NCBI GenBank assembly: GCA_031213475.1
Contig: JARUPZ010000005.1
Coordinates: 10,921,260 to 10,985,259 of the forward strand
Reading direction: 5' to 3'
DNA length: 64,000 nucleotides
DNA from: Nereocystis luetkeana
Lineage: Eukaryota; Sar; Phaeophyceae; Laminariales; Laminariaceae
This document shows positions 232 to 60,346 of this stretch, one piece after another. The translations under genes and the position numbers were made by a program. Under the pieces are notes generated by a model. It was not told the origin of the DNA, ran no database searches, and saw nothing but the letters and a program-made list of their open reading frames with translations. Numbering within the stretch: position 1 is the stretch's first letter; every line of letters starts with the position of its first letter.

Positions 232-347
232 CCATATTAAATAGGACCTCGGTACAGACAAACATCTACCTGGTATATATTTCCAGAAATTTCACTACTA
301 CCAGGTATTTACTAATATTTGATCCTATTTACTATGGCCCCAAGTAA
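232..347. mobile_element. MITE-A copy 1 (TA-inserting), carrying two micro-insertions
   Basis: Ends TTGCGGGGGACCATA...TGGCCCCAAGTAA flanked by TA. It differs from other copies by a CCTGGTA after the TA at 267-268 and a CCAGGTA after the TA at 299-300. Confidence 0.8.
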
Positions 348-2146
348 TACTAAAGGTTTGGAATGATAATCAGTAGCTCTTAGCGGCGGGAGTTACGCCG
401 AATGTCACCTCGCACCTGATAAACAATAAATAGCCTCTACTACAGCAGTTAGTTGTAGGTCCAGTTTTTTTCTGCGAGGAATGGTATAACAATAATAATA
501 AGGTTCTAAAGGCGTGTTCCTGTTACGTACCTGGTAGGCGTTTAGGTGGCGGGCCCATACAACTGTAACCAAGTAAGATGCCCCAGTCTGTCCTGAAACG
601 TAAGGACCTCAATGACCAAATGGTGGCACGAAAACGCCCCCTTACATAGAGGGGCAGAGTGGTAGGAAACCTAAACAGGTATCATAGTAGTTGGGAAATA
701 GACGAAACTGCGAGCTTCCTACGTTCACCGCATGTACCTCCAACACGCACACGCGGGATATCACACCCTCCCCCACCCAGTCGGAGCGGCTATTATTGAA
801 GGTGTTTTTTTTTCTGGTTTTCTCGGCAACGTGGGGGAGAGTGGACACGCCGAGCGTTGTGTCCGTGGAAAATATATCGACGAGTTCGTGCCGAGCCCAC
901 CACCGTGATTACCGAGCTGCGGTGTCCCCCTCGGGTTGGAGGGACTCGCCTCGAAAACTAGTACGAGAATGCACACACCGGGGGTTCTGATATCATGCCT
1001 TGATATGTGCTGCTTGCTGTGTATGAGAAATGGAATCGTAAGCTTTTTTTTACCCAGATCTCCAAGGACAAAAAATAAAAGAAAAAAAGCTACGTGAAAT
1101 ATGAGAAGGGAGGAGGAGGGAGGACTACTTCCCATGGCGTGGGGGTGGAATGCAGATGCGGAGTAGGAAGCATGGCGTATACATACATAGTAGGTAAAAT
1201 ATCTCGGTAAATGGTGGGGGTGCATATTCAAGTGAGTACACGAAGGGAAGGAGAATTGGTTCGATGAAGTTAGTGGTATTCGATGAATTATGTCAGCTTT
1301 TTCATTTTGAATGAATAACGCCCTGCACATTGTCAGAAGGCAAATAAAATAAACATAAAAATACACTACTTGTGCCAGGTGCGTGTTATATTGAGAAACG
1401 TACAAGTTTTAAAAACGAAAACTGCAGTGAGATCGAGAATTTCGTCGAAACTCCTATTCGCAGTGTGTGTTTGATACATACGTCGGTCGCATACATGTGC
1501 CAACAAAAAACAGTTTTCGACGCTGCTTTTTCATGGATTTAAAAAGGGAAAATGGCAAAAACAACTGTGAACTGAATTGCATATACATACGATGTGTGAA
1601 CTGCTGTACCGCACTACAGATACGTGCTGTGTATTGCTCTTATAAAGCGCACATCGATACACAAAGCGCATCGCGTAGCGGGCCGCGCTACGCTCGCTTG
1701 CAAGCAAGGATGAAACGCAACAGATAATGAGTACGTAGATGGTCCAAAGATTTAGGCCCAAACAGGCGCTTCTCAAAAGCCATACGCTCCATGCTCCAGG
1801 AAAACAATCCAGACGGTGCATGTATGCATGTACGTACATACTTATTCCGATATGTACGGACTTAAAAACACCGAACGGCACATTACCGTGCGGCGCTGCG
1901 CTGCGTTTCTGATTGGCTGGGTGTGATACTCTTGTGATTCTACTATATGTATTTGTTACTTCGTACTTCGTGTATGATGCCTGGTACGTACGAAAGCTAA
2001 CGCTGCGCTACGCCGCTCAGTTGAGCTGAGCTGAGCTGAGTTGGGTGTGACTTGTGGATCTTTAGTCGTATGATACATGATACCTTGAAGACTCGTAGTG
2101 TGAGGGACTCGTATCTCGCTCAGTGCTTTTTTTTACTGCTACGCAC
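348..2146. other. No gene seen; probable intron 4 of the P450-like gene
   Basis: Both strands were scanned for the expected I-helix, ExxR and haem-cysteine exons of the P450-like gene and nothing convincing was found. A 214-codon minus-strand frame (761-1405) is low-complexity in composition and is not taken as a gene. Several short CGTAC/GCTACG palindromes and a GAGCTGAGCTGAG run (about 2022-2040) are present. Confidence 0.5.
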
Positions 2147-2318
2147 ATTGCTCTCCTTCAGCATCTCCATGAATCTCGGCCACATCTTGGAGGTGCGGAT
2201 GGACTCCAGGAGCACCTCGACGGAAGCCTTCTCCTCCGATGATATCCCACCCGCCAACGTCTGAGCGACGACGGCCGCCGCGTTGGCTACGGGAGTGTCG
2301 ATCTCTAGCTTCAGCAGC
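2147..2318 (-). CDS. P450-like gene exon 4 (last exon found)
   Basis: The acceptor GGCAG precedes 2318. The first G completes a Val codon and the exon continues LLKLEIDTPVANAAAVVAQT to a charged helix ending MLKESN at the donor GTGCGT. The segment ends just before where the I-helix would be expected. No continuation was found to the left, so intron 4 is at least 2.1 kb. Confidence 0.58.
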
Positions 2319-5300
2319 CTGCCTCATTCGCCCACGCGTTAAATTAGTGAAAAATACCATGAGCACATGCGTCAAGGGGGGGAGAGGGGGAGGAAGGAAG
2401 GAAGGAAGGGGTTGAAGGAGGCGGACAAATTGATTCATTGACCGAGCCGTTTGGGTTGATTTGATTGGACGGGCGATGATTCTACAACAGGGGCATGATG
2501 TTCGGGGGCGGCAGCCTCAGGAGCGGACGGGGCCATGTTTTCTCGGCTGTTTCGATACGCGTCAATTCATTGGCCAGACAAGGAGACGAACACCACGTCT
2601 CCCTAGGTTCACCATGTTAAAGGCTAGTCTACGGTCTAAACCTCTACCCCCTATCTAGTGTTCAGTATGTGTAGGTTGTCGGTTAAGTTTGGCACTCGCG
2701 TGCACAACACCGAATACAGCGAGACCGGGGTGGGGAGCTGTGATATCGGGAGGGAGCCCGACCCGAAAGGCATGCGATACCGGGAGGGAAGCGAAGGCGC
2801 GCTTCGGCTAAAAAGCGAAACCTACTCAAACTGTGGGAAAGCCGAGAGGTGTGTGGATGGCAGTACACGAGATTTTCTTTTTCCGGGTCTTCAATTCTCA
2901 CTCTCTTAACTCTCTTTCTGTCACCCACCCTTCCCCTTTCTATCTGCCGGCATGTCTCTATTTGTCTTATCAATAGTCGCATGCCAACATTCATGAGCAT
3001 AGGGGACGGTGGACAGCGAATCCAGGTGGTAGTCCTACCCTAGACACTACTCGCAGGCGCCTGCTTTAGGCTCGGATAGGCACCGACAACATCAAAAGGT
3101 GCTCGCTCGGCTACTACTTGCCGTCGACGCCCAAGCTCCAGCAGCAGGGCCGCCGGGTCCCTGCGTTTTCCTGTACTAGTAGTTTTAATAGGATTGCCGC
3201 CTCTTTCTCTCCGCGTTTTACCCTTTCTACTGTCCATTACCCCCCGTATTCTCGTGTGTCTTTTTCCGTGTCCATCTTGAAAAAGTGCAAGACCCGAAAA
3301 CCAAAAGCTTTTTTTTATCTTGGCCTTCATTCCCCACTCTCTCTGAATGTCACCTCTTTTTCGTCTCTCTCTCCACCTTTTCATGCCTCTTATCTCAGAG
3401 TATTGGGAAGAAAAAGTCAGCAGGCGTGCAATACAACAAATTCACACCCGCGTTCATAAAGCACACAAAGAGTTTTCGCTACATACATACACCAACATGA
3501 AAATAGCAGCAGGAGCCGGGAGCCAGCAGCCGAGCAAGCCACTGCGGAAGCGGCACACCGAACAACACAACACAAACAAACACATCACAACCCAACCCAA
3601 CCCGAACCAACACAACACAACACAGCACCCCACGACCCCCGACACAGGGACACATATACGGCCACTCACACGCTGATGTCGCTAGGGTTGACGTTGACGA
3701 AGTCTTTGAAGGGAGGGAGGGGCTGGCCGCCCTCCTCCCCCGTCCCGAACACCCACTCAAGCATGAAGGCGTACGACTGCTGGAGGAAGGTGTCGTACAC
3801 GGTGGGATATTCTCCTAGGCCTGGCGTATGCGCGGTATGTCCGGTATGCACCAAGAGTGAGAAATATAGGGCGATACAAACAGATGTGCGTGAGATAGGG
3901 AAGTGAAGAGAGGGAGAGAAAAAGAGAGGAGCGGGGGGGGGGGGTCATGTGTTGCTTGCCTTTATCACTTGGCCATCGACCAAGCACACCTTTGGAGGCG
4001 AAGCACCCATTCCTACTGCTAGTAGAGGCATCGCCCAACAGAGCATGTACACACCCTACCCTTCCCTTCCTAATTGTAACACCCCCCTCTGACTACGGCC
4101 ATGCATGACGCGAATACACCCTCCTCCGCCCTGCCCCGCCTCGAAAGGGAGGAGTGGTTAATGGCCAGGAAACTAAGCCATGCAACAAATGAGTACCCCC
4201 CCCCCCGCCGTCTTCTTACGTTGTACCTCGAACACCAACCATAGCATGCCCCAACCGACCATTGGCGCTGCTCCGTAATTGTCATTTTTTTTTGTCCTCA
4301 CATGTTGTCCTCCTAAGCCCCCCAAAAAAAGTAAGCATGTCTACATACCAACCCTGGGTCTTCAAACATGGCCTGTTCTGCTTCTCCCTTTGCTGAACCT
4401 GACACTTTCATCCCCCCGACCAATCGATTAATTTGACGCTGCAAATCCGTGTGCATAAAAAGCCCGCCTCACAAGCGGTTCGAGCTATATGATGCGGCTC
4501 ACCCTTCATGTGCGACCCGCCGGACACCTCATGTTTCGCTTCGCGCTCGGTGACAGCAAATGTCTTGCTTGATCGGTGAAAGCCCGACGTGCTCCGTCTC
4601 GGAATCATAGGGATGCGAGGGTCTACAACCACACGACTACGGCTGGACATAACACTGAGTACAGCCCCCCCCCTCCCCCGCGCCCCGCCCCCGCCCCCCC
4701 CACCGCCCGCTCCCGTGCCTCCTGTTGCTCTCACCCTTCGCCCTGAGGTTCTTGTAGAAGTTGTCGGAGGCGTGCGTGAGCGCCGTCTGCGTGGCACCGA
4801 TCCTCTCCCTCAAGAAGGAGTTGGTGTACTCTCGCACAGCGGAGTGAGACTCCGGGATGTTGGTCACCAAGGCCGGGAGCGAGTCGCCCACGTACTCCTT
4901 CGTGCACTTGAGAGGCCCGAAGTACGGTCCATCCTATCGCACAAAACAACAACGAAACAAAAACATAATGCGGCGTTTTCGAGGGGGTGCGAAGCAGGGG
5001 AGCAGGGAAAGGCGGGCGGGGCAGCGGGGGTTCGGAGTGGGATGCAAATATAGGGGAAGAAGCGTTCTGAGCCTTCGTCCCTTCGGGACTTACGTAGGAC
5101 AGGTTGGCCGGGACCCCCCCCCCCCGCCGGTACACCCTTTCTCCTTCCCCCACCCCTGTACAAAGTGAGCGCGAAAACAGATCCTCGTGGTGGAGATTTT
5201 GAACAACCAACGTGGTACACCATTACGCGTACCGAATTGAGAGGCTGTCCGATACATTGTGGGGTTTGCTACATTGTTCATATCCTCACAAGGATGTGTT

Positions 5301-8300: not shown

Positions 8301-11300
8301 GTTTTTTGCTGACCCGCGGGTCGGACCCGCGCATTCGGCTCGCGGACCCGACACTTGAATAACTTCCCGCTCTCTTACCCAAAGGCTTATCTCGTACCAA
8401 TACACTCCATAACACCCCTTCGGTATCATATTCAGACATTAAAACACCGCCAAATTCATACCTGGTATACGCATGCCCGCATCCATTCATACCCACTACA
8501 GCCTGGTCATATATCGCTTCGGGGCACTAAAATGAACACTAAATTGTTTTTGAAGTGCCCACGCACGGGCCAGATCCGCGCGTCGGGTCAAGATAAATGG
8601 TCTCGCGGGTCAAGGTGACCCGACCCGCATGAAACCCGTGTCTCACGGGTCAGTCAGAAAGTGGCGGGTCCGGTCGGGTCGGGTCAGGAGGTTTCGAAAT
8701 CTTGCGGGTCGGGTCGGGTCGGGTCAAGAGATTTTCAAGTCTCACGGGTCGGGTCGGGTCGGGTCAAGAGGCTTTCAAAATCTCGCGGGTCGGGTCGGTC
8801 AAGTCAACATACCTAAAAAAAATCGTGGGTCGGGTCGGGTCAGCTGACCCGACCCGACCCGACCCGACCCGACCCGACCCGTGAGGTTTGACCTGACCCA
8901 CGAAAAGCCCTGGTTAACAGGACCAAATATTGTTAGTAAAAATGGTGAAATATGTAGGTTTTTATGTATACCATGGGTCCTATTAACTATGGTCCCCCGT
9001 AATAACAACATTTGGTCCATACTTACTCAGGTCCCCCGTGATAGCTCACTTTCCTGAAATCCTGGCTGTGGTCACAGAACAGGGTGCAACAAATGCATAC
9101 CGATGGGAGAAAACAAACAAGTACGAAATAGTGCGCACGGCAGTATCATACCAGTCCGTAAAACGGGAAAGGAAATATTAATATGAACCCTTTGAGAATT
9201 GTCCCGTTTGGGGGACAAAGTACTTAGAATTTGAGAGTTTTGTCCCCGAAACGGGACTGCAGTTCTAAAAGGGTTACTAGCGAGCTGTGGTGCATCGTCC
9301 CGGATCACTTGCAACAAAATAACACCAAGAACATTTCCATGTCATTACTCCGGAGTATATATGTACACCCGAAAAAAAACACTCTTACCTGTGGTACTAT
9401 TTATCACCAGGTACCAGGTACCAGGTGTCAATTAGCAAAAAATTAGGTAGTTGTCCCCAAAACGGGACTGCAGTGCTAAAATGGTTGACAATACGTGAGA
9501 GCGACTATTAATAACAACAATTTGAACGAAATAATGACAGTAGAAATATAAAACACCGTACGATCAGCCAAATTGGCGGGCAAACTTTGGACACGAAACC
9601 GCACCAGGCCAGCTTCAACGCTAAACCAAGTACGACGTGAGGCTAGCCAGCTGGCCAGTGCCAGCAGGGCTCCTGGCGTGTGATCTGTACTGGTTTTCAG
9701 TGTGTAACTGATTTTGCCACAAAAGTGACAAGGTGTACGAACGTATGTATGAATACCTGATTTTTGCAGGAACCCAAAAAACAACTGGAATTTGAGTCAG
9801 GTCTAGTGTATACTCGTACGTAAAGGTTTCTGTACAAAGGGGTTAAAACGGTCTGTGTACGAAGTTCGCAAAACACGCACACCAAGTCCAGAACCGATTC
9901 TCCGAAAACCAGGGAGGGCGCGCGCACAGAACGAACAGATGTACTACAAGACTATTCAATAGCGGCTTTGGAAAGATCTCGTCGAGACCTCTCCGTAGAC
10001 GCGTCGCTCGACGTTTGCAATCTCCCGAAAACAGCTTTGGAATTGGTCGAGCAGCTGCTGCTGTGCTATCTTGCCTTGCTCTTGGACAGACGCAGTATAC
10101 TCCGTGCCCTTGGGTATACTCGGCTGGGTGTTCGTATCGAGTGCATGCCGTACTCCGAGTGGTACTGCGTAAGAGTATACTTATTGCAGTACTGGCGGCC
10201 TAAATACAGAACTGCGGGTGCAGGGAGTACGCGGAGTATTGGAGGCCCCAGAAACGCGAGTACAGGAATTATGAGCAGTACCGAAATAAATACCGAAGGG
10301 CGCGAGTGCGGGGAGTATGAGTAGTAGTACTGAAAGCCCAAAATAGCGCGAGTACTCGGAGTATCAGCAGCACAGACCATATGATACTACTACTGTACCG
10401 CGTACAAGCACCACCAGCAGCGCAACATCCGAAGGGCTTGTACTACTCAGAGTATCAAGAGTATTCAACCCGTCAATACTGCAGATACTCGGGAGCAAAT
10501 CATACGCACGAAATACTGCCAGTACTTCAAGTACTCCAGATGCCGCCCCCCCGCGCCCCCCCCGAAAGTATTTGCTCCAACTCCCACTCACCTGTGAGTG
10601 TGTCTACACGACAATGGGGATGGATTTAAATGGTAGGAACGGTGAACAGAATGTCGCAGTATGCCTCACATTCCGCGTGTACCGCGCATATTGCTTTGCT
10701 ACCGTAGCGAGTAGAGGAGTACCAGGGAGTACCGTAGTTTCCAAGTAAGTGGCGGTGTACTATCAATAGAGGTGCTACCCTTTTGCCAACTACTCGCGTA
10801 CTCGCGAGTATTACCCGACTTACCAATAATATCCGTCGCGGGTACGGGGAGCAAATCGTGCTCACCGAGTATTTGGGCCCCAAATTCTCGCGTGCCGGGT
10901 TTAATTAAACGAGCACCCGGGTGCCCGTCTGTTTTCCGTGGAGAATCACGGGGATGGCAACTTATCATCCCCTAAATCACGTGATCTGGTTATAGCATAC
11001 ATATTGCGATGATACCGCTGTGTTCCAGGAGACCCTTCCAAGATGAAAATGTTGTGTGTCATGCATGCCTCACATCTCACACTAAACTACAGCAGTATTA
11101 TTAATATTCATATTAAATACCGGTACCAGGTAGAGGGTTTACCCCTTCGCTATTAATAACTACCCGCGTACACGCGAGTAACACCCCGCTTGCAAATTCC
11201 TGTCACCGTTTCGGGTAGCACTTCATACTCGCCAAGTATTTACGCCCCAGGCGCTCGGGTACTCGGCTCTTATAGACGGGTACCCCGGGTGTTGAAACGG

Positions 11301-12609: not shown

Positions 12610-13520
12610 GATCGAGACAGATTTTATTTCGTGAGGGCGCTCTCTGTGTGTTTGGGGTGGTGTGTGCCACAAAAGTTGCTCAAAATTGAGCACAAAAGGT
12701 CAAGTGTCGAGTGCCAAAATTCAAAAAAAGGTACGAAAGAAAGGCCAAAGGTCAAGCTCCAAATTCAACGAACAAATCTGAGGCTCGAAATCGGACCCCA
12801 GTGCAGCATACCTGGTACCAGGTACATCATAGGCACAGGCATAGGAAATTTACGGAAACAATCTCCCAGGACGGCGCGTCCGCTTGTTTTCTTCTGTTGT
12901 AGCTCCTTCATGTTTCACAGCAATTCGGGCGAAAATTCAAAATTTCACATACTTTCATACCGGTACGTATCATACCTGGCAGGTAAAATAATTTCTTGTT
13001 TCTCCCACCCACAACTTCTGTCTAGACTCTTGACCCTCTCCCCTGCTCTGGCAAATGATTTTGTTTGTCAGTCCTACCGCTCTGTCCGGAAATATAGGTA
13101 GTTGCACATCATCGTGTGCATAAGACTTGTCTATTACATTTACGGACGGGCAACGGAAGACACCGCACGACATGGTTGATACCCACATCATCTGCTCCAT
13201 TCCTCCATCTTGTATACCAGGTATATACTCGTATGTGCTTGAAGTGCTGTACCAGCTGTACCAGGTGTTGTATGCTCTGCTGCTGCTGCTGCTGTGTCAC
13301 GGTATATATGTCAGTGCCAAGGATGTGTGACAGACATGTTGTTGATACTGCTGTGTATGACACGGGCATAAGGGTATACCTGGTACCTGGTATTATTCGG
13401 ACACAAGCATGTACCTGGTACACACGGGCGTGCCTGGTATGCGGATGCACAAGAATGTACCTGATACATACGGGCGTGCCTGGTATGTACACCAGACACA
13501 ACAACCCGAATCGTAATCAC
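12610..13520. other. Upstream flank of the P450-like gene; no gene seen
   Basis: This would contain the promoter of the P450-like gene. No TATA box stands out. The stretch 13210-13500 is dense in TACCTGGTA/CCTGGTATG micro-motifs, at least six in 300 bases. Confidence 0.35.
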
Positions 13521-13739: not shown

Positions 13740-14670
13740 AGCCGCGGTGTTTTTTTTTAATTGAGCTGATAATTTTATAATTTTTAACTTTTGATGTCTC
13801 TCCCAGCGAAGAGGTCCTCTCTCCCAGCCTCCGCCCCCCGAAGTCCCGTTCCCAGGGGGTCAGGTGCCATCAAGAAGATTCTTCGAATGTTCTGCAACTT
13901 TTGTCTCATCCTCTGTTGATCGTGCCCGAACCATAATCCCATCATTACCTATACGAAATCCAGGCTTTGGCTATCTTGTCATCTGTGGGTCTGTGGTCTG
14001 TGGGGGGGGGTGCAGGCGAAGGCTGGGGCAGCACTCGAGAATTCTCCCTGCTGGCGCACTGCTTGCCGCTGGCATAGTGCCTTGGAGAAAGAAAGCTGAG
14101 ATTGAAGCGTCAGAGTGTCCCCGTCACCCTCGCATCAAAGCAGTAAGCCATGTCGATGTTCAGAGAGGTGCTGTCTCGACAGTGCGGCGAGCTGCCGTCA
14201 GCAATTCAGGGTCACGTGAGTCCCGTTTTGCCTCGTACCTCTATTCTGCAGTCTGATCCCATCTGGGGTGTGCATAAGGTTACTTAAAGTAGATCAAGAT
14301 GTAAAATACTCGAAGTACCTGCGTTGTTACGTACCTGGTACGTACTTACGAAAAAAGCACGAGATTGAGAAATAATTGCACTCGTCTTCCGATGTACTGG
14401 TTGTAGGTATCGAGGTCAGCATGTTAGCCTTGTGTCCGCCGTATTGAGAAGGCTTTTTGACAGTACACTGAATCGTGGGCAACGGCGTGGCGCGCAGGCC
14501 TGCACGCGGATCTTAGTGACACCGGCACTGTTGGGTCTAGCTCTGCCGTGGAAATAAACAACTTACTCGTATTATGGTATTTAATAGCACAATGTGTCTC
14601 ACCGCCGCCGCCGAGACCTTGCCCAGTAAGGCACGAAGGCACGGGTCAGGATTAGAGGTGGGCACCTTCA
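13740..14670. other. No feature recognised
   Basis: No coherent coding frame or repeat border was found. A 130-codon plus frame at 13864-14256 has no recognisable features. Confidence 0.35.
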
Positions 14671-18049: not shown

Positions 18050-19680
18050 TAAAACGCCTCCATATCATCCAACCAAACGGTATTTTTGCGTCCAATACAT
18101 GCTGTTTATGTGGATTCCGAGCTACTGGTGGTGTGCGGCAATAAAGTATAGTGGTGTGGCACTCACTGCCTTAACAGCAGCACCTATTGGTGCGGGGTGA
18201 CGTGATTTCTTGGAATATAACAAGACCTTGCATATCTATTTATGCACTGAAGTATACGGCAGTAGCACGGCAGTAGCACGGCCGTACCGTACACCTGCCG
18301 CCTGGTGGTATATCATCTACTTGTGTAGAGCTTCACTTATTGCAGGCCTACAAGGCTAAAATACTGCTGTTCTGGTAATGTAGCAATCTCTAAAAGTAGC
18401 TGAGGCATGGAGGGCGTGCAGCAGACTCGGCGAGCCCAATTGTATACCTGATACTCGTACATATAAGGTGTTCCCGGCATATGATAGTGATACCCTCATT
18501 GGCAGGGTTTTACACGATACAACAAGTCGGCATGGACCGTGGTCATGTATCACAGGAGATGAAAAAAGGGTACAGGAAATTATACGGGTCTCGCGATGAT
18601 ATCAGATGCACTGCGTGGGACAAAAATAACAACTGCTGGTGAGTAATTTATCGCTTATTTTTCGTTTGACTTTGCATCGGTGCCCCCCCCCCCCCCCGAA
18701 GACTATCGAACACAGAGCAGCAGTCAGTTCGCGTGTAGTAGCAAAGCGAAACACCCACCTCTACAGTAGTTACTACAGGGCACCGACCTGGACATTATAT
18801 AACCTGTAAACGCCACCGGAACAAATGGGGGGGGGGGGAAGTTAACTATGGCAGCCCCCTAGCTGGCAGCGCCCACCCCCAACACCCCAACAAGCTACGC
18901 CATCTGAACCGGTAGCACCTACCAGTACATATTAACTTTCCTGACATCCAGGTAAAACAGCAGAGCTTTAGGGTCAGCGTGCAAATATGTCGAAAAATCA
19001 CATAACGGTAGTGTCACATTTTCACAATGAGCACAATTCCATCCAGCATGGTCTAATCCAAAAACAAGCTGACAACCAGCTTTTGTCAACCATCGCACCA
19101 AAAAAATGCACCATCCTTCTTACGTCACAAACTTGTTATCTGGGATATGGTGCGTTTTTTGGGATGTGATGTATCCTCTTGCATACCTGGTATACCATTT
19201 TTTTTATCCAAGATATAGTCGGAATTTGTAGGGCTGGGCCTTGGTAGGTCTAGCCAGTACACTACGTACTGGCTGCGTCATATGCCAGTACACTGGACCC
19301 CGACCAGTGCACTGGTGGTCGCGGCGAGCCGCGATACCTGCTCCCCCCCGGCTGGTTAGGGGGGGGCGCCGCAGGCGCCCCCGGAGGAACACTGGAGGCG
19401 CCCTGCCGGACGTACGTTTTACGCGTTTTGGCTTCACTGGAGCTAAAAATACTTCGTTTTTGGATCATTTCGAATGCGATTTCGTGGTAGAGTGACTAAG
19501 AAAAAATAAACAAAAAGAGCAAAAGCGAGCGAAGCGTATGATGGACAGGAGTGTGTGGAAGTACGGCACACTGACGCACGCAGCCTAGATACCGAACATA
19601 TGGGACACGGCTTCAATTACATGTTTGAAGCGTGCAACACCGAATCGCTACAGGTTGCGAAGCCGCGGCCTCAGAGACGT
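18050..19680. other. No gene recognised
   Basis: Contains a C run (18686-18699), a G run (18826-18838) and GC-rich inverted CCAGTAC/GTACTGG motifs near 19255-19315. No exon-like stretch was seen. Confidence 0.35.
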
Positions 19681-28118: not shown

Positions 28119-28545
28119 TAGTAGCCGGGAGGAGAAGGAAACAGATGCACAGATATGCCCCTGTGGTAAAGCAATATGAAGTAGAACTCACATAGGAAAA
28201 TGTTAAATGTACAAAAAGGAATGGGATGTGCTAGAAGAGCAGACGAGGGAAATAGACGAATGAGACATCGAGGAGTTAGGTACACTAGATAGCAGCGAGA
28301 AACGATGGCTATCCTAGGAGATAGATGGTGGCCACAGGCGGCCAAACAAGAAGGGGATGAGATCAACAAAAAGTTTCTATGTAGTATATGGAAACAACGT
28401 TATGAGCGTCCAAGTGTTGGTTGCGTCTCTGTTAGGAGTAGGAACGGTGCTCCGTCTCGAAGGGGATGCGTGGCCAACGGTCGAAATTACTACCAGGTAT
28501 TAATAAGGCAAGCAGCAAATGAGTACGCCCCCCCCCCCCCCTCCC

Positions 28546-29457: not shown

Positions 29458-29459
29458 TA

Positions 29460-29559
29460 TTACGGGGGACCATAGTTAATAGGACCAAATATTGTTAGTA
29501 AAAATGGTTAAAGATATAGGATACCATACGCAGGTCCTATTAACTATGGTCCCCCGTAA
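29460..29559. mobile_element. MITE-A copy
   Basis: TTACGGGGGACCATAGTTAA...TTAACTATGGTCCCCCGTAA flanked by TA, next to a (TAG)n microsatellite. Confidence 0.88.
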
Positions 29560-29572
29560 TAGTAGCAGCTGT

Positions 29573-40800: not shown

Positions 40801-41130
40801 CGGGCACCACTTTGTAGAATACTATCCTCTCCCCCAATCCCGCAGCGCGCAGTGCGTGCGGTTGCTGTAAATTTAACCATCGCGCTTTTTGAGCGCTCTT
40901 TTTTTCTCTCCTCTCTCAAGTCCAGAGAGGGTCAAGGCATGTATATATACCTGGTATATATGTGATATATATGATATGTGTATGTGATGCCTTGCAGGCT
41001 AGCAAGCGCTTAGTTGTATCGTAGCGTATGGGTCCGATTCTCCGAGGCGTGGGGCCGCTCAGCGGGCGGTTGTTTGTACCAGTGGGGCTGCTCAAACTGC
41101 ATCAGTGGGGCTGCTCAAACTGAACATGCT

Positions 41131-41168
<38 letters not shown>

Positions 41169-44100
41169 CTCTCTCTCTCTCTCTCTCTCTCTGCTGCAGG
41201 GGGGGCGTCCGGTCCGTGAGCTTCAGTCCGGACGGGCAATTCCTGGCGATCAGCATGCTCGACGCATCCGTGCAAGTCGTGAGTCCAACTCCCCCAAAGC
41301 AGAGTCGCTCGCGGCCGCGGTGGCGTGGCATGGTGGCCGGCCTCCTCGCATTGTCTGACTGCTGAATAGCGTATGCTGATACAAAGTCGCCCTCCGGGAT
41401 GTGGTTGACTTGAAAACCCGAGAGTTTCGTACCGGTATACTGGTATAGCATGCGCAGCTTTGGTTTCGCACATAGGAGCACCCCCCCCTCTCCCCCCCCC
41501 CTACCTCAATACGCCTCCGTGGATCTGTTATCGATCATGTGTGCTGACGACCCCCCCCCCCCCCCCCCCTCCCTACATGCTCCGTCCCGGCATTATAGGG
41601 CTGCGAAGGTCTATGGTCATACGACTACGGCCATGCATGAGATCGAGTACATCTCTCCTATCGAGTACACCCCCCCCTCTCCCCCGACATACCTGAACCC
41701 CACCCCAAACGCCGCCGGTATTTTTTCAATCTGACATTAGTTTTGGTCTACCCCCTTTTCGGGCAAGCAGGGTTTAGGCCATACCGTAGCTGCGTAGACC
41801 ACGTCTACACCTTAGGCAAGATAATCCAAGGTAGGGAAGACGCGGGACTAACAACGCACTGTTTCTTCCTATTACGGGGGACCATAGTTAATAGGACCAA
41901 ATATTGTTAGTAAAAAGGGTCAAATGTATACCCTGGTAGGTTTTTATGTATACCATAGGTCCTATGAACTATGCCCCCCCGCAATAGATGTGCAGAAGGT
42001 CTACGACACAGTATGGATAAATGGATTGTTGGAAAAAACTACTGTATGGGAAATAGGGATAAGAGGAAAGAGGTGGAGAATGATGAAAAATATGACGGAA
42101 TGTGCGAGAAGTGCTGTGATGCTGGACGGGGAAATATCGAAGTATGTTGATATTTTTACGAGGAGTTGCACAGGGATGTACGTTGTCACCCAACCTATAT
42201 AAGATATATATATATATATTAAGTACCTGATAGTAGCAGTTGAAGCGGCAAGGCAGGGAGTCACGTCAGGGGAAGAAGCGGTATCGGGATCGATGTTTGC
42301 GGATGACTCCGTGGGGATATCAGAAACACCTGAAGGACTGCAGGAACAAATAGAGAAGGCGCTAGAACACACTAGGAAATGGAGGGTGACGGCGAACGTC
42401 AAGAAATGCGCGGAAGTTCTTTGTTACGAAAATAAGGTGAACCCGATGAATTTCAGTTGGAATGAGGGGAGAAGATGAATTGCCAATCGTAGACTAGTCC
42501 ACGTACCTTGGCGTAGAGATCTCAAAAGACTGCTCTTGGGATATGCATATGGCAAAAGTAATAGGAAAGGGTAAAGCACACGTAGGCATGATGGATGCGA
42601 TCCTAACAGACTCGCACCTTGGCACCAGGATTAAGGGATGTATCCTGATGAATGTGATAGCACCAAACACCCACGCAAGACAAATATAGATATAAGAAAG
42701 TTGAAATGGCAATATAAAGTAAGGAACATGCCAAAAAAGAGGTTGTCACCCATATAGTTGATAGAGCTGCATGGGAGAAAGTAACAAAACGGCGGGCTGG
42801 GATAAGGTCGGATAGCGTTATTGAGAAAGTATGGAAGGGTACAGGGGGAAACCAAGAAAAGGTGATGCCCACCGGGAAGTTCGGGAAGTACAAGGCAGAA
42901 GTAGAAGAAAGGATAGAAAGAAGGGAAAGGTTTGCGCTACGAAACAAGATGGGATCGGAAAAACACATGGAGATATACGGGGGATTGAGGGAAGGAATAG
43001 GAATGAAAACGTATCTGCACGGCCCAACGGACTTCGCGAAAACGCTGAAACTGCGCTTTCGTATAGGTGACCTGGACCTGCCAGAAAGAAGAAAGAGGTA
43101 TACTAGTAGCCGGGAGGGGGAGTAAATAGATGCACAGATGTGCCCGTGTGGCAAGGCAATAGAGTAGAACTCACATAGTAGGAGGTTGTGAAATGTAGAA
43201 GGAGGAACGGGATGTGCTAGAAGAGCAGACGAGGGAAATAGACGAATGAGACATGGAGGAGTTTGACACACTAGATAGCAGCGAGAAACGATGGCTATCC
43301 TAGGAGATAGATGGTGGCCATAGGCGGCCAAACAAGAAGGGGATGAGATTAGCAAAAAGTTTCTATGTAGTATATGGAAACAACGTAATGAGCGCCCAAT
43401 TGTTGGAGGTGTCTCTATTAGGAGTAGGAACGGTGCGCCGTCTCGGAAGGGATGCGTGGTCAATGGTCAAATGACGAAGGTAAGCAACAAGTGAGTACGC
43501 GCCCCCCCCCCAACCCTTCCCCACACATCCCTCCCCGTGCATCCCTCCCCTGCACCATCACTCCTCGGGTGATTAGTTGTACCTGGTATCCTCGGGTGAT
43601 TAGTTGTATACTAGTTTCTGACCCCCCCCCCTACTACAGCCATACGACTACGACCATGCATGATGTCGAGTACACCCCCCCCCCGTGCATCCCTCCCCTG
43701 CATCAACACGCCTCCGCTTATTAGTTCATCATTCTTAGTTCCTGACCCTCCCCCTCCTGCTCCGTCTCGAAAGGGATGCGTGGTCAATGGTCAATTCACT
43801 AAGGCAAGCAGCAAACGAGTATGCCTCCTCCCCTCCACGCTCATTCTCGAAAGGGATGCGTGGTCAATGGTCAAATGACTAAGGCAAGCAAAAAATGAGT
43901 ACCCCCCCCCCCCCCCCGCATGGTCACACGACTACGGCCATGCATGACACAAGTACCCCCCCCCCCCCCTCCTCTCACGGCACATCCCTCCCCTGCATCA
44001 AAACGCCTCCGGTGTTTTTTTTATCGATCCTACAGTAGTTTCTCACCTTCGTCTCGAAAATGGATGTGGTCTACGGTCAATGGCCTAAGGCAAACAACAA

Positions 44101-44459: not shown

Positions 44460-45330
44460 CTGGGTCGTTACCAAACATGGGCCGATCATAGCCTGAGGAC
44501 TGGGGGAGTGGGGAGGGTTGAGGGAGGGGGGAAAGGGACGGAAAGGGGGGGATAAGGAATGGGGGAGGAGAGATGTACTTCGCGGGGAGGGGGAGGCTAT
44601 CGGTAAGTTCAGTGAGTGCATGGTCGGGTATTGCTCAATTTTGTTTACAAGTATTTTGACTGTGGAGGGGGGAGAGGAGGGGGGGGGGGGGGGGGAGATA
44701 TCGGTGACTTCGCGGCAGATTTAATTAGTACCTGTTCGGGTGTTGCTTATTCGATCTACTGTACGAGCTGTTAAAAATGCCGTGCTTGATTGGCTATTAA
44801 TAGTATCATTGGCTCTAAATTGAGTACCTGCTCTATACAGTACATAGGACCTGGTACCTGTTGGTATGGTACCTATCAATTTTGCCGCCGGGGGCAGTTG
44901 CTCACAGTTGTACCACTGGGCTGCGCTAGTGCAGTCGGGGCGCCTCGCGAGGGGTAGTGGGCATGAAGAGGGCATGGCCCACCTGTGGTCTACGCGGTAG
45001 CACGCATACCTGGTACAAAGCAACACATCAACAACCGGGTGTGTTGTACATACACTCGGTAGAATGCGGGTGGATGCGAGCAGCGCGAGAGGTCTGCCGT
45101 GATAACCTCCCGCAGTGGTTCGTTCTACTCGTACCCTATCGCTGTTGTTGTACCCCCCCCGCCCCCCCCACGTCACATCATGTTTTCTGGTGGAAAGTAT
45201 TATCGTGTTGTCCCACCTGTGCATCTGCTTCTATTATTTGTACCAACCGCGGCTGCAGAGCTTCGACACCATGCGGCATTCATCGGGCAGGGTCCGGCGG
45301 ACCCCATCTAGCGTGCCTCGTTGACGGAGT
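44460..45330. other. No gene recognised; G-rich 3' flank of THOC3
   Basis: Runs of G (44500-44600 and 44663-44696) with quadruplex potential follow the THOC3 stop. No coding frame was supported. Confidence 0.35.
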
Positions 45331-46219: not shown

Positions 46220-47518
46220 TTATAACCCGATGAACAATCCCATGGCTCGACAGCAGTAGGGGTATAACACACAGAGCGAATATACGTTGCACAACACAGA
46301 TGTCATGATGATGTATCAGCCAAAAGAGGGGCTCCGCAAGAATCGGAAAATTATCCGGCCAAGAAAGTGATGTGCACCATGCACCACCCCTCTGCCCGAG
46401 CCCGCGCCTGACATATTGTAAGTTCACGCCTCGGACCAATGAGTGGAACCTGTGATACGACAGCAGCGCCAAATCCTAGTAATGCTAGATATATTTGGAG
46501 GCGTTCTGCGGTAGACGTTCACCCTAATCTTTCTGAGGCTCCTCACTTAAGGAGCTCCATACCTCACCCGAAAACTGACTTCAGCAAACTTCAGATTCCG
46601 TCCCGATGAAAAATCCCATGGCCAAGCATACAAAAAAACGTCATTTTTCGAAACAAGATTGGCATTCCGACGATTGTGGGTTAAGGAACTCCGTCATTCA
46701 AAAACTATTTTTTTAAGCGGAAAGGTGCTACTTGTATCGTCGAGTTATTGTTGGTTCAGGTTAATTCTTATCGGAGAGCGTTTTTTCCATAATTTCCAAA
46801 TTTTGGAAGTAGTTGGAGATATGTATCAATATACGGAGGCGTTCTGTCACTATTCGTGAAATTCTCCTGAACCAAAAATATCAAGTTCGTTAACATTCCA
46901 ATATTTGGAAAAAAAAAAAGACAGGAAAATATGGAAGATTGAAAAATTGCGCGAAAAAAATGTCAAAAATTTGGACAAAAAGCTCTCCGATAAGAATGAT
47001 CCTTATTCACCGAGAGGTGGCGCGACAAAACGCCAGTACTGACACCTGACACCGCTGCCGACGAGAGAAGGAGGGAGATGGCAGACAGTGTGGCAGGCAA
47101 GGTCCCTCCCTGACTCGGCTTAAATTATACCAGGTATGTAGCAGAGATGCGAATAACCTTATCTTACGCTACTTGTTTTCGTCCCTTTCGAGCACGATTT
47201 TGTTCCCTATGTATGCCTTGATTGTGTCACTACTTTTTGTTTCCTTCTTTCCTTCCTCTCCACATCCATCCTTATTCCGGTGTCTTGCTCTTCTTCGTGC
47301 TGCTTCGTCCGTGCGGCAGGCATGTCTTCATCATCTTCACCGCGTGCCTGCTCCTCTCCCGCAGTTTTTGTTGTTGCTGTTTTTTTTCGTATTCTCAGCT
47401 TCTTTCGTAGATTCTGTATGATTTCATCATCATGTTTGTTTTTTACATGTATGTTGTCTTGATAGGGTACAAAAGTTAGTGATTTTACTATCTATCTTGG
47501 TTGGGCAGGTTGTAGCAG
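46220..47518. other. No gene recognised
   Basis: AT-rich around 46600-46980 with a 66-codon frame of no recognisable character; T/C-rich around 47180-47460. Confidence 0.35.
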
Positions 47519-48261: not shown

Positions 48262-48502
48262 TAGAGCACCAATCGAAGACGCGGCTCCTCAAAACCCACT
48301 CCCATCACATCCTCTGAACAGCGAGGCAAACGAAAAGCCGAGAAGAACCGCGAAGAGAAAACCGGAAAGAAAGGAGCAGGCCGATACTCGTACACGTAAG
48401 GGACAGAAAAAAAATGCCAATGAACACCACCGCCCTCTACCACCAGCTAGGGGGGAAGAATATATCGACGCAGACAAGAAAAAAAAACAACCCACAACCC
48501 GA

Positions 48503-48633
48503 GTACGGGGGACCATACCTGGTAGTAAATAGGACCCAATGTTGCTATTAATAGTACAAATGGGTAAATGCATACCAGGTACCTGGTATGTTTTGTATGT
48601 ACCGTAGACTATATTTAGTATGGTCCCCCGTAA
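48503..48633. mobile_element. MITE-A copy with four micro-insertions
   Basis: Relative to intact copies it carries CCTGGTA after ACCATA (48516), TTAATA after GCTA (48546), and CCAGGTA plus CCTGGTA back to back after GCATA (48573, 48580). Confidence 0.85.
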
Positions 48634-48776
48634 TAAATGCATACCAGGTACCTGATGGTATGTTTTGTATGTACCGTAGGCTATATTTAGTATGGTCCCC
48701 CGTAATAAATGCCTACCAGGTACTTGGTATGTTTTGTATGTACCGTAGGCTATATTTAGTATGGTCCCCCGTAATA
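48567..48776. repeat. Tandem triplication of the MITE-A right half
   Basis: Units of about 70 bases (AATGCATACCAGGTACCTG...TATGTACCGTAG...GGTCCCCCGTAAT) at 48567-48635, 48636-48706 and 48707-48775, differing by one to three bases. Confidence 0.82.
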
Positions 48777-48890
48777 GCAACGGGGGCGAGGCGAAACTTG
48801 ATGGAAGTTTATACCTGGGACTGCGGTGGCGTGTGCCCATTTCGATTCCACCCCGTGACAAACCCACACACAAATGTGGCCTTTTATCTC

Positions 48891-49033: not shown

Positions 49034-49402
49034 ATGTCTATTAATAGTGTAGTTATAAAAAATACTAAGGGATCTCCATTATTTTGGCACCTGGTATTAC
49101 ATACCAGGGTATTCCTCTATGATACGAACATGAAAAATGATCCCACGCTAACCCAACCATTTTTCTTTTTTCCTCGTGACAAGCCGATTGACGTACCCGT
49201 ACGTAAAGTCGCTTGCATTTTTATTGATAGTAGTATGCTCGCCATCCAACATGTACATTGTGCACATGAAATGATGTGGGAAATGGAAAAAAATAGGAAA
49301 CGGCTGGCAGAGAAGCGTGTGAGCGATACTGCAGATTTACGGAAGGATATTCGGTTTAGATCGGAACGGCATCTACGCTATATTGTCGTAAGGCAAGCAT
49401 AA
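49034..49402 (+). CDS. Unrecognised ORF, 122 codons
   Basis: ATG to TAA frame with a plausible, charged C-terminal half (VHCAHEMMWEMEKNRKRLAE, then KRVSDTADLRKDIRFRSER). It starts directly after the (ATT)n microsatellite. A 9-11-bp palindromic CCTGG/CCAGG motif pair lies inside it, suggesting the region is a degraded repeat. DNA just before (CGCCATCCGACAAT) and just after (AGCTTCAACGTTGATCA) recurs in inverted orientation at 63.82-63.91 kb, so this may be part of a dispersed element. No family was recognised. Confidence 0.25.
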   Translation: MSINSVVIKNTKGSPLFWHLVLHTRVFLYDTNMKNDPTLTQPFFFFPRDKPIDVPVRKVACIFIDSSMLAIQHVHCAHEMMWEMEKNRKRLAEKRVSDTADLRKDIRFRSERHLRYIVVRQA

Positions 49403-53455: not shown

Positions 53456-54800
53456 TCGGGACGATAGCTGGTGGGGAGAACCCGAGACCAGGCGGACAGT
53501 GTAAGACTTGGCATAGATGCATAGTCGAAGACCTTAGGGAGTTCCGAGCCACCGAAGGGTCAACGGAAGTTGCCCCCTTGGTGTTTGGAGTTGAGACCGC
53601 GTTGTGGTCCACAGCAGCCAAAAAGGCGGGGAAGTGGTACCGGGGGATCCTTGAAGCAGCCGAACGGTTCATGGTGAGGTGGCACGAGGCTGAGGCTGAG
53701 ATGAGTAGACAGCGCCGCGCATCCGCCGTGGATGGTGCCCAAAGGAACGGGGGGGGAGGGGGCAACAGGAGAAGTGGCATAAAGCCCGACCGAGTGAATG
53801 CGGAGAGGGGGGGGAACAGGAGGGGTAGAAGGGAAACGGCGGTAGACGAAAGTAGGAAGGAGATGGCAGACAGGGTAGCAAGGCACCAAGTCGACTAGGA
53901 AGTAGAATATGACCATACTACTAGTGCTACCAACTGGTGCAGCTGGCTCGAACGTGGTCTTCCCTTGTCTTCTCTTTTAGTTTTTTTTTTTTTTTTTTTT
54001 TTTTTTTGTTTTTTTTTCTCTCTTGCGCTGACTCTCCGTGATTTTCATTTCATTTTTTCTCTTCCTCTTCCTTTTCTGATTGATAAGCCGTACTCAAGGA
54101 GCCGTGTGGCGTGGTTGGAAGACGAACCTGCTCTGCTCGGCTCGTATTGTCTGACGCCAAGGGGCTGGGCATAGTTGACGAACGCAGGGCGGAGACGGCA
54201 GTCTGGGTAGCAAGGTACCAGGCGGATTAGCAGGGAGAACCTGGCTATACTACTCGTACCACAAGCTGCTGCCGCCACCTAGAAGGTGCTTTGGGCTTTG
54301 GTCTGCCTGTTATTTCCCCTTTGTTATTTTTCCTTGTTACTTTCTCCTTGGTTCTTTGTCTTACTCTGTTCACAAGCAGTGGTGTCTTTTGTTATTTCTT
54401 CTTTTTTCCAGCTCGTTCTTTTTCAAGTGTAGGCCACCTCGCCTGCGGGGGGGGGGGCACGACAGATTGTTTCTCTTAGATTTTGCTTTCATTTTTCTTC
54501 TTTTTCTTTTTCGACTTGTCTACCTTGTTTTGTTTTCTCTTTGATTGTTTCTTTTCGTTTCACTATTTCATAGATTGCGTATGTCGTGCCTGTCGTATCT
54601 AGTATGATGACATGGCTTTGCATTGCCCACTGCAGTTCACACTGCACACGTGGCAACGTAGTATCTCTGTGGCGTAGCTTTGTGACCACAGAACTTGTAT
54701 CTCTTCTAGGATGGAAGAATCGGCACGGACACTGGTTGTGCTGGATGTCGACGGGTAGAAAGAACGGTTTAATGTGAAGAACACACACACACACACTACC
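53456..54800 (+). mobile_element. LINE-AC copy 1 (5' truncated, (AC)n tail), inside the LTR element
   Basis: The frame 53452-53898 encodes a C-terminal piece (TEVAPLVFGVETALWSTAAK, WYRGILEAAERFMVRWHEAE) that resembles the post-RT tail of LINE ORF2 proteins, ending HQVD. A long 3' UTR follows, then GATGTCGACGGGTAGAAAGA..GTGAAGAACACACAC. A 27-base T run (about 53982-54007) distinguishes it from copy 2. LINE status is inferred from truncation, shared 3' end and tail. Confidence 0.65.
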
Positions 54801-54805
54801 TGGTA

Positions 54806-57720
54806 CGCAGTTTCACACGATGCTCAAAAAGATGGTATACCAGGGTAAATTATACGACGAGTTGCATTACCGTGCGTACACGACTAAGAATATGAATATT
54901 AACGATAGTACATGTAATGTGGAAAAAAGATAGGAAACCATACTCCTACTACTACTGCTCTACTCTGTACCTGCAGTCTTTTTTTTTTTTTTTTTTTTTC
55001 TACCCCAAACAGGGTAACCTCTCGATACACGGTTAAGCATACAGGGGGGGTGGCTCGCAGTATGTATGCTTTTGACAACATCAATACAGGGCGTTTAGGG
55101 GCTATATATATAATACTACACACTCCCGTAAAACTGTACCAGGTACCTGGTAGGCCGTATGGCAAAATCCGTAGGGACCATTTCGTACCTCTCTCTTCCC
55201 ATCTTTTCGAGTCATGATAACGCGTTGAAAAGCGACACATTATCAGGATGTACCACACACACCGTATGCACACGAGGACCAGGTATCTGGGATTCATACG
55301 GGGCATACTACGGTGAGGAAGCTGGGTAGAAATGACGAGTTTAGTCGAAGGCCACATATCATACGTGGAGGATGTATCCACAGTATAATATACAGTATTC
55401 ATACCACTATCAATATAACCGTTCATGGGACTGAAGGTCGCACGGCAAAAGCTCTCTAGATCCTTGGGTCCATCGCTCCTCTTGCTTTCACAAGCGTGGA
55501 GACGTTTAACTTTGGCCCCACACATCCCTACACACGTACGGGATGAGTGTCCCCTACTACCGGAGCAAAGTAATGTTGTTGGGAAGCCGTGCAGCTGTGC
55601 AGTGTACGGCATGTTACTCTTCGGGGGTAGATGAAAGCTATGTTGAAACAACTGAGGGCACACAACGAAAGTCATAGCGGGTTGTTATGGTCTCCAAGTA
55701 CCCGATACGCTGGAATTCCACTTGTTTCACCCGTTCGGGTCTTCTCACCCGGTACGTTGGCATTTCACTGGCTTTCCCTGGTCTTTTGACCCGGTACGTG
55801 GCCATAGGAAACAACCATCCTCATTAGCTTTCGCGCACATAATTAGTCCGTCAATTATAAGAAATAAAAACGGACAACCCAGGCGATGGGAATGTTTGCA
55901 AAACTGTGATATGAGGTGATCGTGTTCTTTCTATAATCCCACGTTCCATCTTGCATACTATGTTATGGGATACTCGTTATATGCATATATCCACATGTTT
56001 TCGGTGTTGCCTGCCTTGTAGGACGGTGATTCGTGTGATACGCTGTTGTTATGTATTCACGCTGCCGATGGTGCTCTGCCTGTTGTTTCGTAAGGCTTTG
56101 AAGATACTTGTCTGGTCAATGCATGCAGGCATACTCGTTGCTCGTGCTCGTGCTCGTATGTTCGCTCGTTTTTCATGATCGCACACACATGCATGTTCGT
56201 TAATAAATGTCTGCATGCGATAGACCACATAATGTCTTCAAGACGAAATGCAACCGACAGGTGTCGATACAAGCCATAGGTGCCGTACGTACTAATACAC
56301 GCATGCTCTCGTGGACCGTTTGCTCGGTTGAGTGATAACGGAAACTAACAATGTCGAGCCTTACGCTGTTTGGGCGTACATAACCACCCTTTAGAACGAT
56401 GAACCCCTGGACAACAACGTGCATTGTCGGCTGGCAAACATGGAACGTTCGAGAAATCCACGTATATTGTGATACCTGTGGTGTAGTTTGTGACCACAGG
56501 AAAAATCTCTCTCTAGGATCAAATAAAGGGCACGGACACTGGTTGTGCTGGATGTCGACGGGTAGAAAGAATGATTTAAGGCGAAGAACACATACACAAT
56601 ACGTGCAGAGTACGAGTCGAACACATACGGCCGCATTACCTTATTCATCCCGACTGCTGTAAAGTATGTATATTTTCTTCATTCAGCATACCGAGCTGGT
56701 ATCACATCACACTGGATACGGCAGGCACGACGCACGCATTCCGTCCAAGAGCAGAGAGAGATAGCAGTGCGACACCAACGAATAAATAAAACCTATCAAC
56801 CTAGTGGCACCGGGCATATTAGTACTGGTAGTTACAAACCACCCGGCACTAGATTATCGACTACCAGGATGTCGACAAAGCAGTTTGTGTCACAGAATCG
56901 GGGATCACACACATAAATAGTTGCAATCCCGTGATCACAGCGCCCGATTACTGGGGGATGCGTGAACAGTTACTTGATAGTATCATGCACGAATATTTGA
57001 AAACCGTGAAAACAGGCGTTTGTTTTACATTCGTGCTGAAAGGACCTCGGAGCGCTGGCCTCTATCCGGAGCGCTTTGCCTGTAGCAAGGGTGTCTGCTC
57101 TTCCAGAGCAAATACATGCATCCTAAGCAGTGGGCACGAGATACACAATGCAAATCAAACTGAGGAGAGAAAACCTGGTAGTTTCCGATAGGAAAACAAA
57201 GCCCCTCCCCAGCGCGCATACTCACGCGCCGTCTTAGCTGCTGACGCAGTGAACGGAGAATCAAACGAGCTTGACTTTGTTCAAGTATCTGACATGGTTC
57301 CCAATGACGATTGGGCATCTTCACCGTTTGAGTACTGCACTCCTGTACATGTACATAGGGTTGACCCTAATTTTCAAGTGCTTCGTCCCCGCATGGGGAG
57401 GGCAGTTCTATCTAGGCGAGGCCACATATGCCCAATGCCCAAACTAAAGGTTCCCCTCATTTGCGAACGCGATCGTGAAGTGGTTGCGCGTACCACGCAC
57501 CTGTTGTGTCGTCCGTCTCCAAGCATCGAGCGATCCGCCTGATCGGAGAAGAACGGTTGTAGGAATTCTAAATTGCATGACTAATGCTGGAAAACATGAT
57601 GTAGGCATGGTGTAACCGAGCAGGATACCTTCCTATTTGACTCTCCAAGGTTAGTGGCCCAGTGTTGGAGACACGAAGCGAAAGGTGGGATTGGGATGCC
57701 AATAAGCAGTAGGTAGTTTC
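54806..57720. other. LTR-element interior, no recognised gene
   Basis: A 258-codon minus frame (54899-55675) has no recognisable motif and ends in poly-Lys from a T run; it is not accepted as a gene. A third LINE-AC 3' fragment lies at 56470-56610 (GGCACGGACACTGGTTGTGC, GTCGACGGGTAGAAAGAATG). Confidence 0.4.
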
Positions 57721-58355: not shown

Positions 58356-58424
58356 TATCTTCAAAAGACCACACTAGGGGTTCACCAAACGTTCCCGAGC
58401 GAAGTTTCACACAGAGCTGCAAAG

Positions 58425-59400: not shown

Positions 59401-59401
59401 G
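59388..59401 (+). other. Putative polypurine tract
   Basis: CGGGCAGGGGGGG lies directly 5' of the 3' LTR, the usual place for plus-strand priming. Confidence 0.6.
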
Positions 59402-59942: not shown

Positions 59943-59968
59943 TAACCACTTGAACCACCGGGGCGACC
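59943..59968 (-). repeat. Right remnant of split SINE S1 copy 3
   Basis: TAACCACTTGAACCACCGGG plus GCGACC is the inverted first 26 bases of S1. Confidence 0.88.
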
Positions 59969-60233
59969 GGCATACTAGGTACTACTAATATAGGGATGCC
60001 ACCTGTTACGGCACTATTAATAGTAGTCTCAGTATCATCTAATAATAGTCGCTGCTACATACCAGGTGACACACAGAATGAAACACCTGGAGAAACGCAT
60101 CTCGTACTACGGTCAGTATTAAGTAGCAGTGCAGTCTATACGTGCACCAGGTATAGGAGTAGTGGTCTGTTTGGTAGGAAGGTTTTCATGTGTGATAGAG
60201 CAGTGTACCACTACAGTAAACATACTATTAATA

Positions 60234-60346
60234 TTACGGGGGACCATAGTTGATAGGACCAAATCTTGCAAGTAAAAATGGTTAACTATATACCTGGTAG
60301 TTTTTTCATGTATACCATAGGCCCTATTAACTATGGTCCCCCGTAA
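60234..60346. mobile_element. MITE-A copy inserted next to a TATTAATA footprint
   Basis: TTACGGGGGACCATAGTTGA...TTAACTATGGTCCCCCGTAA flanked by TA. The left flank is TATTAATA (60226-60233) and an internal TATA-CCTGGTA-G micro-insertion lies at 60291. Confidence 0.88.

Follow-up and report, generated by a model that had tools for sequence, protein, structure and literature searches.

Why the same few bases should recur between TA dinucleotides throughout a stretch of brown-algal DNA is the question raised by a 64,000-nucleotide region of the Nereocystis luetkeana genome (contig JARUPZ010000005.1, positions 10,921,260 to 10,985,259; this whole stretch is referred to as the window). Two motifs are concerned: CCWGG (W is A or T; TACCWGGTA with its flanking TAs) and TTAA (TATTAATA with its flanking TAs). 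We consider it probable (roughly 0.72) that these micro-insertions are excision footprints of cut-and-paste transposons that insert at TA, TTAA deriving from MITE-A, a miniature inverted-repeat transposable element (MITE) family, and CCWGG from a second element with CCAG ends.

Dispersed micro-insertions at TA

Abundance was assessed in the window, in the 465-Mb genome that contains it (1,987 contigs) and in a 264-kb sample consisting of the window and twenty 10-kb stretches from elsewhere in the genome (L numbers denote fetched stretches). The window contains 34 copies of TACC[AT]GGTA, for which Markov models of order 3, 4 and 5 predict 0.41 + 0.29, 0.92 + 0.57 and 4.8 + 3.4, respectively, and TATTAATA occurs 11 times, with 1.31, 3.2 and 6.8 expected; orders 4 and 5 absorb part of the motif. 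Given the higher-order models, the TTAA excess is less strong from the window alone. Genome-wide, 182,395 TACCWGGTA and 93,112 TATTAATA were counted, against 1,744 and 10,689 for the control, which was each motif read backwards, so the over-representation reported by an earlier sequence-only reading holds both in the window and across the genome. The sample contains 95 CCWGG sites (2.4 expected), unevenly spread at 0 to 9 per 10-kb stretch, and 47 TTAA sites (94 counts halved, with the expectation likewise 9.7/2).

Clustering by flanking sequence placed the 95 CCWGG sites of the sample in 93 clusters and 46 TTAA sites in 43 (one near-end site was omitted), so copying inside larger repeats accounts for very few of them. 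Filled and empty sites were sought by an all-against-all blastn survey of gaps in the sample in which the motifs were not used as input; gaps of more than 12 bp and poorly flanked gaps were dropped, and a single insert may be counted repeatedly where gap placement differs. Among 36 unique places with 7-bp gaps, 10 fit five bases plus TA after a TA, and seven of these are CCWGG. The TA form was found at 10 of the 52 places with 6-bp gaps (TTAA in three) and at five of the 23 with 8-bp gaps, where CCAGGG, a longer variant, makes up four. Clean filled and empty pairs were obtained for TTAA (L024:8177, with three empty relatives, and another in L021), for CCAGGG (L021:3787) and for CCWGG (L027:207, L009:5270 and window positions 34718 and 35237), while others, L021:3811 and window 33621 among them, have a gap of 7 to 9 bp depending on the relative. 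For both motif classes, a short insert that duplicates TA is thus missing from related copies.

A MAFFT alignment of MITE-A copies (hits of 70-190 bp, which leaves the copy at ~220-350 outside it) comprised 27 rows, of which 21 are insert-free, five carry one CCWGG-type insert and one (48600-48777) is a composite array in which the motif also occurs. Four of the five insert-bearing copies share one TA, although one of these (L025:94) has no clean second TA. The inserts at this TA are CCTGG (twice), CCAGG and CCAGGG, and three different inserts at one position indicate repeated hits on a hotspot. The individual examples named by the sequence-only reading mostly stood up to alignment: the MITE-A inserts at 35237 and 60291 (the latter ragged in blastn and clean in MAFFT), the SINE-II tail insert at 34718, which has empty relatives, and the double insert in the LINE-C tail at 28491, against which certain relatives align raggedly. 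Of its two other MITE-A cases, 267 was aligned to two relatives and 48516 was read by eye from its flanks. Both motifs are inserted after TA and are dispersed.

One further TA-bounded form is enriched in the sample, TACGTA (124 sites, 60 expected), together with its stacked form TACGTACGTA (8 sites, 0.3 expected), and is possibly a third kind of footprint.

Proposed separate origins of TTAA and CCWGG

Cut-and-paste transposition would produce such inserts in few steps. A TA-inserting element would enter at TA and duplicate it; a transposase would later remove the element by staggered cuts, so that a few of its terminal bases stay behind as 3' overhangs; annealing of these during end joining would give TA-x-TA, whose new TA would be open to the next insertion. 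The cutting enzyme, the overhang length, the repair route and the existence of a CCAG-ended element are what we infer here.

For TTAA, the terminal bases required are those of a family in the same genome. MITE-A is TA-flanked and roughly 100-115 bp long, with ends TTACGGGGGACCATAG (TTACGG...CCGTAA), and it is Stowaway-like in being short and high in copy number, with terminal inverted repeats (TIRs) and a TA target duplication. Its termini (n = 54) show T, A and C at positions -3, -2 and -1 before the TA and A at -8, and the flanks of TATTAATA (n = 94) have the same consensus, TAC before TA and A at -8. A MITE-A matrix gives TTAA flanks higher scores than random TA flanks (p 3e-18, an indicative value because the two flanks of a site are not independent), which is not the case for CCWGG flanks, and log-odds matrices correlate with that of MITE-A at 0.77 for TTAA and -0.39 for CCWGG. 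Excluding MITE-A-adjacent sites left 91 of the 94 flanks with a mean score of 0.74 (0.79 before). The MITE-A target preference is thus found at TTAA sites but is missing at CCWGG sites. This makes MITE-A excision the very probable source of the TTAA footprint, and the shared target consensus gives good support to this part of the sequence-only reading. An overhang of 2 nt (TT + AA) or of 3 nt (TTA/TAA, paired over 2 bp) would be compatible with the insert.

CCWGG appears to have another source. Of 190 flanks, 30 were stack-like and were removed; the other 160 have a preference of their own that is modest and symmetric, WA.TATR-TA, and extends no further than 7 bp on each side. The parent would be a distinct second element with ends that begin CCAG, probably CCAGG: CCAG(G) overhangs that pair in register, with a single A:A mismatch, would yield CCAGG or CCTGG, and a one-base shift in the pairing would yield CCAGGG or CCCTGG, never CCCAGG or CCTGGG. 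The sample holds nine CCAGGG, with unrelated flanks, and one CCCAGG, and a genome-wide count made as a test of this skew gave 11,422 TACCAGGGTA (control 409) against 1,578 TACCCAGGTA (control 362). This favours shifted annealing of identical CCAG(G) ends, since slippage in the CC or GG runs would give equal numbers. The figure of 11,422 includes copied sites, as seven of the first 100 listed places belong to one tandem array on contig C1 (1305185-1308353), in which TACCAGGGTA recurs seven times at 528-bp intervals, one insert per unit.

Other length and sequence variants say less about the ends. The one-base-shorter forms CCAG (21, 11 expected) and CCTG (15, 8 expected) in the sample do not discriminate between the possible ends. 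TCAGG outnumbers TCTGG in the sample (14 vs 5) and TATCAGGTA occurs 10,524 times genome-wide (control 1,526). TCAGG was at first taken as evidence for paired TCAGG and CCAGG ends and then set aside, since TATCAGG is part of a C1-enriched repeat and of LINE tails and the genome-wide count covers TATCAGGTA and not TATCTGGTA.

The insertions appear to be old. Sequences one base away from TACCAGGTA are ~74 more numerous than the Markov model predicts, for 95 exact sites, which corresponds to an average change of ~8% per base (a value that depends on the Markov background) and indicates that most insertions are inherited. Long accumulation without many active elements could account for the contrast between numerous scars and scarce parents.

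The predicted parent of CCWGG and competing explanations

Transposases of a suitable kind are present in the genome. Profile searches gave 28 matches to DDE_1 (pogo-like), and DNA was taken around 11 of these genes (L036 and L037 are identical in sequence) and from L040. At L038:1439-3622 (contig C33), a pogo-like element of 2,184 bp lies between TAs; its 24-bp TIRs differ at one base (CAGTACCGGCC[A/C]GCTAGTAAGAAA) and its DDE_1 match is interrupted by one internal stop. The genome therefore has a transposon that inserts at TA and belongs to the expected superfamily, but its ends are CAG and not the CCAG of the predicted CCWGG parent. TACWGTA, the footprint predicted for these ends, occurs 97 times in the sample (38 expected), a comparison confounded by simple repeats. 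The DDE_1 protein of L030 has Ectocarpus relatives at up to 62% identity, the best-scoring of these having 55% over 79% of the query. A Pfam search of three window frames gave no hits. Separately, an inverted repeat in L040 (C34:4443800-4447200), with arms that match almost perfectly for ~300 bp or more, may have arisen by recent inverted duplication or be an artefact of assembly, and L007 and L008 share a 29-bp candidate mini-element.

Several results weigh against the footprint reading. The other TA-inserting, CC-ended family that the sequence-only reading had proposed for CCWGG draws indirect support from the motif's own target preference, its insertion at TA, its mixed stacks and the CCAGGG skew, but the family itself was not found: the 264-kb sample holds no TA-bounded inverted repeats with CC or CCAG ends and no TA-CC repeat boundaries, and no such element lies in ~65 kb around the DDE_1 genes, even though CCWGG is twice as common as TTAA. 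Among mariner-type profiles, DDE_3 gave no match in the genome (30 candidates scored), nor did Transposase_1, for which the control was silent and the result is uninformative. The unannealed product of 4-nt overhangs, TACCAGCTGGTA, occurs 38 times against a background of 39, so any joining would be by annealing only. The comparison of filled and empty sites was between repeat copies within one genome. Published footprints are also more mixed than the near-uniform ones here; in rice, 'perfect' excisions made up only 8 of 94, the others having deletions or filler (PMC4423477, in the parts available). Finally, stacks of CCWGG inserts (TACCWGGTACCWGGTA) number 15,917 genome-wide, ~12 times the ~1,326 predicted by random placement over ~25.1 million TAs, and more than half have both inserts in the same orientation, both of them features that simple independent insertion would not produce. 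The abundance of these head-to-tail stacks does fit the proposal that each footprint adds a TA and so multiplies insertion sites.

The absent parent and the strong stacking beside existing inserts would be matched by direct micro-insertion, in which a TA-cutting enzyme would open TA and either repair or the enzyme itself would leave a fixed 5-bp palindrome, giving ~180,000 near-uniform inserts with no parent in the sample. We regard this as unlikely, as the 6-bp variant is strand-skewed by 7:1, which annealed CCAG(G) ends predict and a symmetric 5-bp insert does not, and for TTAA, in the same genome, the parent family is clear. It is likewise rather doubtful that CCWGG arose with no larger element behind it and that its ~180,000 near-identical 5-bp palindromes were written by an enzyme that targets TA and is either free-standing or active on elements that are never retained. 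If it were so, two TAs per insert, with a neighbouring TA ~10 times likelier to be hit, would make CCWGG a self-seeding micro-repeat.

Replication slippage or tandem duplication, which would make the heptamers ordinary short tandem repeats, is highly improbable. Same-orientation stacks do exceed mixed ones (9,539, or 4,800 + 4,739, against 6,378), and head-to-tail TACCWGG arrays occur in unrelated bacterial genome bins (40 stretches, L058-L097, sometimes several per genome); a scan of viral contigs found no triple unit. However, most of the 182,395 sites are solitary, empty sites contain no unit to duplicate, and 40% of stacks are in opposite orientation, which tandem duplication cannot produce. 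The bacterial triples behave as ordinary tandem arrays, with 36 of 40 in one orientation (first array per locus), a rough contrast in that triples are set against pairs. Slippage is thus largely refuted for solitary sites, while real tandem duplication may explain the surplus of same-orientation stacks. A 23-mer, TATCAGGTACCAGGTACCAGGTA, was considered as a source of these (15 of 57 on the first 4.3 Mb of C1) and rejected, with only 116 copies genome-wide. It is carried by a repeat of more than 1.2 kb (L011:7363; L041-L057). Contig C1 makes up ~5% of the genome but has 48 of the 116 exact copies, and may on this account be an unusual chromosome; of 15 copies inspected, L055 is a different repeat.

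Ancestry within repeat families, with the motifs copied as part of each repeat, is scarcely credible for the bulk of sites, in view of the near-equal numbers of sites and flank clusters and the 21 insert-free MITE-A rows. Copying does occur locally, in the C1-enriched repeat with its triple unit, in the 528-bp C1 array that carries CCAGGG, and at window 48573-48722, where inserts are carried with the unit. The last lies in a small local array of MITE-A ends (48500-48780) that includes the variant TACCTGATGGTA. Programmed excision from the sequenced DNA, which would leave somatic scars with the parents confined to the germ line, would account for very many uniform scars and no visible parent, and is the least plausible explanation of all, as MITE-A is abundant in the assembly, the decay of CCWGG sites marks them as old and inherited, and we know of no precedent for programmed excision of TA elements in the brown-algal lineage.

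Table 1. Micro-insertions and associated MITE-A copies in the window.
Feature	Position	Strand	Evidence
TTAA micro-insertion (TATTAATA)	101..108		motif count
CCWGG micro-insertion (TACCWGGTA)	112..120		motif count
CCWGG insert within MITE-A copy ~220-350	267..275		motif count, two aligned relatives
Second CCWGG insert, MITE-A copy ~220-350	299..307		motif count, alignment
CCWGG micro-insertion	528..536		motif count
CCWGG micro-insertion	8459..8467		motif count
TTAA micro-insertion	9176..9183		motif count
CCWGG insert, CCAGG half-units both sides	9412..9420		motif count, flank reading
TTAA micro-insertion	9506..9513		motif count
TTAA micro-insertion	11099..11106		motif count
CCWGG insert adjoining TACCGGTA (11118)	11124..11132		motif count, flank reading
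TTAA micro-insertion	11151..11158		motif count
CCWGG stack of two, opposite orientation (12809, 12816)	12809..12824		motif count, flank reading
CCWGG micro-insertion	13215..13223		motif count
CCWGG stack of two (13377, 13384)	13377..13392		motif count
CCWGG micro-insertion	13412..13420		motif count
CCWGG micro-insertion	14332..14340		motif count
CCWGG micro-insertion	19184..19192		motif count
CCWGG (28491-28499) and TTAA (28498-28505) at one TA, LINE-C tail	28491..28505		motif count, alignment
MITE-A copy, TA-flanked, perfect 16-bp TIR match	29458..29563	-	TIR scan, alignment
CCWGG insert in repeat copy; missing in relatives, gaps 7 to 9	33621..33629		motif count, alignment
CCWGG insert, SINE-II tail; empty at window 30805, 41571 and L025	34718..34726		alignment
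CCWGG insert in MITE-A copy 35217-35333	35237..35245		alignments
MITE-A copy, TA flanks, TIR TTACGGGGGACCATAG; proposed parent family of TTAA	36916..37032	+	TIR scan, alignment
CCWGG micro-insertion	38076..38084		motif count
CCWGG insert directly outside MITE-A copy 38436-38546	38551..38559		motif count, flank reading
CCWGG micro-insertion	40948..40956		motif count
6-bp variant TACCCTGGTA (CCAGGG on -) in MITE-A 41870-41987	41929..41938	-	alignment, clustering
CCWGG micro-insertion	43580..43588		motif count
TTAA micro-insertion	44795..44802		motif count
CCWGG micro-insertion	45007..45015		motif count
CCWGG micro-insertion	47128..47136		motif count
CCWGG in MITE-A end (TTTACTA-insert-TGGTCCCCC)	48516..48524		read by eye
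TTAA micro-insertion	48546..48553		motif count
CCWGG stack of two (48573, 48580), local MITE-A-end array	48573..48588		motif count, flank reading
CCWGG insert copied along with array unit	48642..48650		flank reading, clustering
CCWGG insert copied along with array unit	48714..48722		flank reading, clustering
TTAA micro-insertion	49039..49046		motif count
6-bp variant TACCAGGGTA	49102..49111	+	flank clustering
CCWGG micro-insertion	54797..54805		motif count
6-bp variant TACCAGGGTA	54838..54847	+	flank clustering
CCWGG stack of two (55137, 55144)	55137..55152		motif count
TTAA micro-insertion	60015..60022		motif count
TTAA motif abutting MITE-A copy (60232)	60226..60233		motif count, terminus flanks
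CCWGG insert in MITE-A 60232-60348, hotspot TA	60291..60299		MAFFT alignment

Known footprints and what the scars would record

The canonical Sleeping Beauty footprint, TAC(A/T)GTA, resembles CCWGG in being an odd-length quasi-palindrome with W at its centre, made from annealed identical ends; CCWGG differs in its 5-bp length, which needs a CCAG(G) end of 4-5 nt, and no element with such an end was seen in the DNA scanned. Mariner elements such as Mos1 have YYAGG ends, and ends beginning CCAGG that insert at TA would give CCWGG, but the genome has no Transposase_1 match, a weak contrast given the silent control. As far as the available parts of the sources go, Sleeping Beauty excision leaves 3-nt 3' overhangs (PMC7827188), and Stowaway footprints consist of TIR fragments of 1-4 bp between TAs, with later insertion beside a footprint (PMC1925063). 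Stowaway MITEs and Osmar, a plant mariner, likewise duplicate TA and leave 1-4 bp of the element end between TAs (PMC4561436, available parts). Their footprints are few, heterogeneous and described at single loci, in contrast to two near-uniform kinds here, at ~1.8 x 10^5 and up to ~8 x 10^4 copies.

The sequence-only reading had also claimed that footprints have not been described as a major dispersed repeat, and we found no description of a near-uniform footprint as a ~10^5-copy feature in the literature searched, which was mostly non-subscription and included kelp genomes and the motif itself. In the parts available, an account of Ectocarpus transposons (PMC12477816) contains neither 'footprint' nor 'excision', and PMC4561436, PMC7827188, PMC4423477, PMC7913693 and PMC1925063 describe no such dispersed feature. 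The kind of event is already known; what is new is its scale, its uniformity and the prediction of ends from a skew.

If the footprint reading is correct, the scars would rank with the commonest dispersed features of the genome, with ~182,000 CCWGG sites adding ~1.3 Mb at 7 bp each, and excision history could be read without the transposon being present. The CCWGG sites would predict the CCAG ends of an element yet unseen. Each scar would be a near-irreversible marker of 6-8 bp, so that rates of excision, the fidelity of repair and the choice of target could be measured on a large scale by comparing two related genomes.

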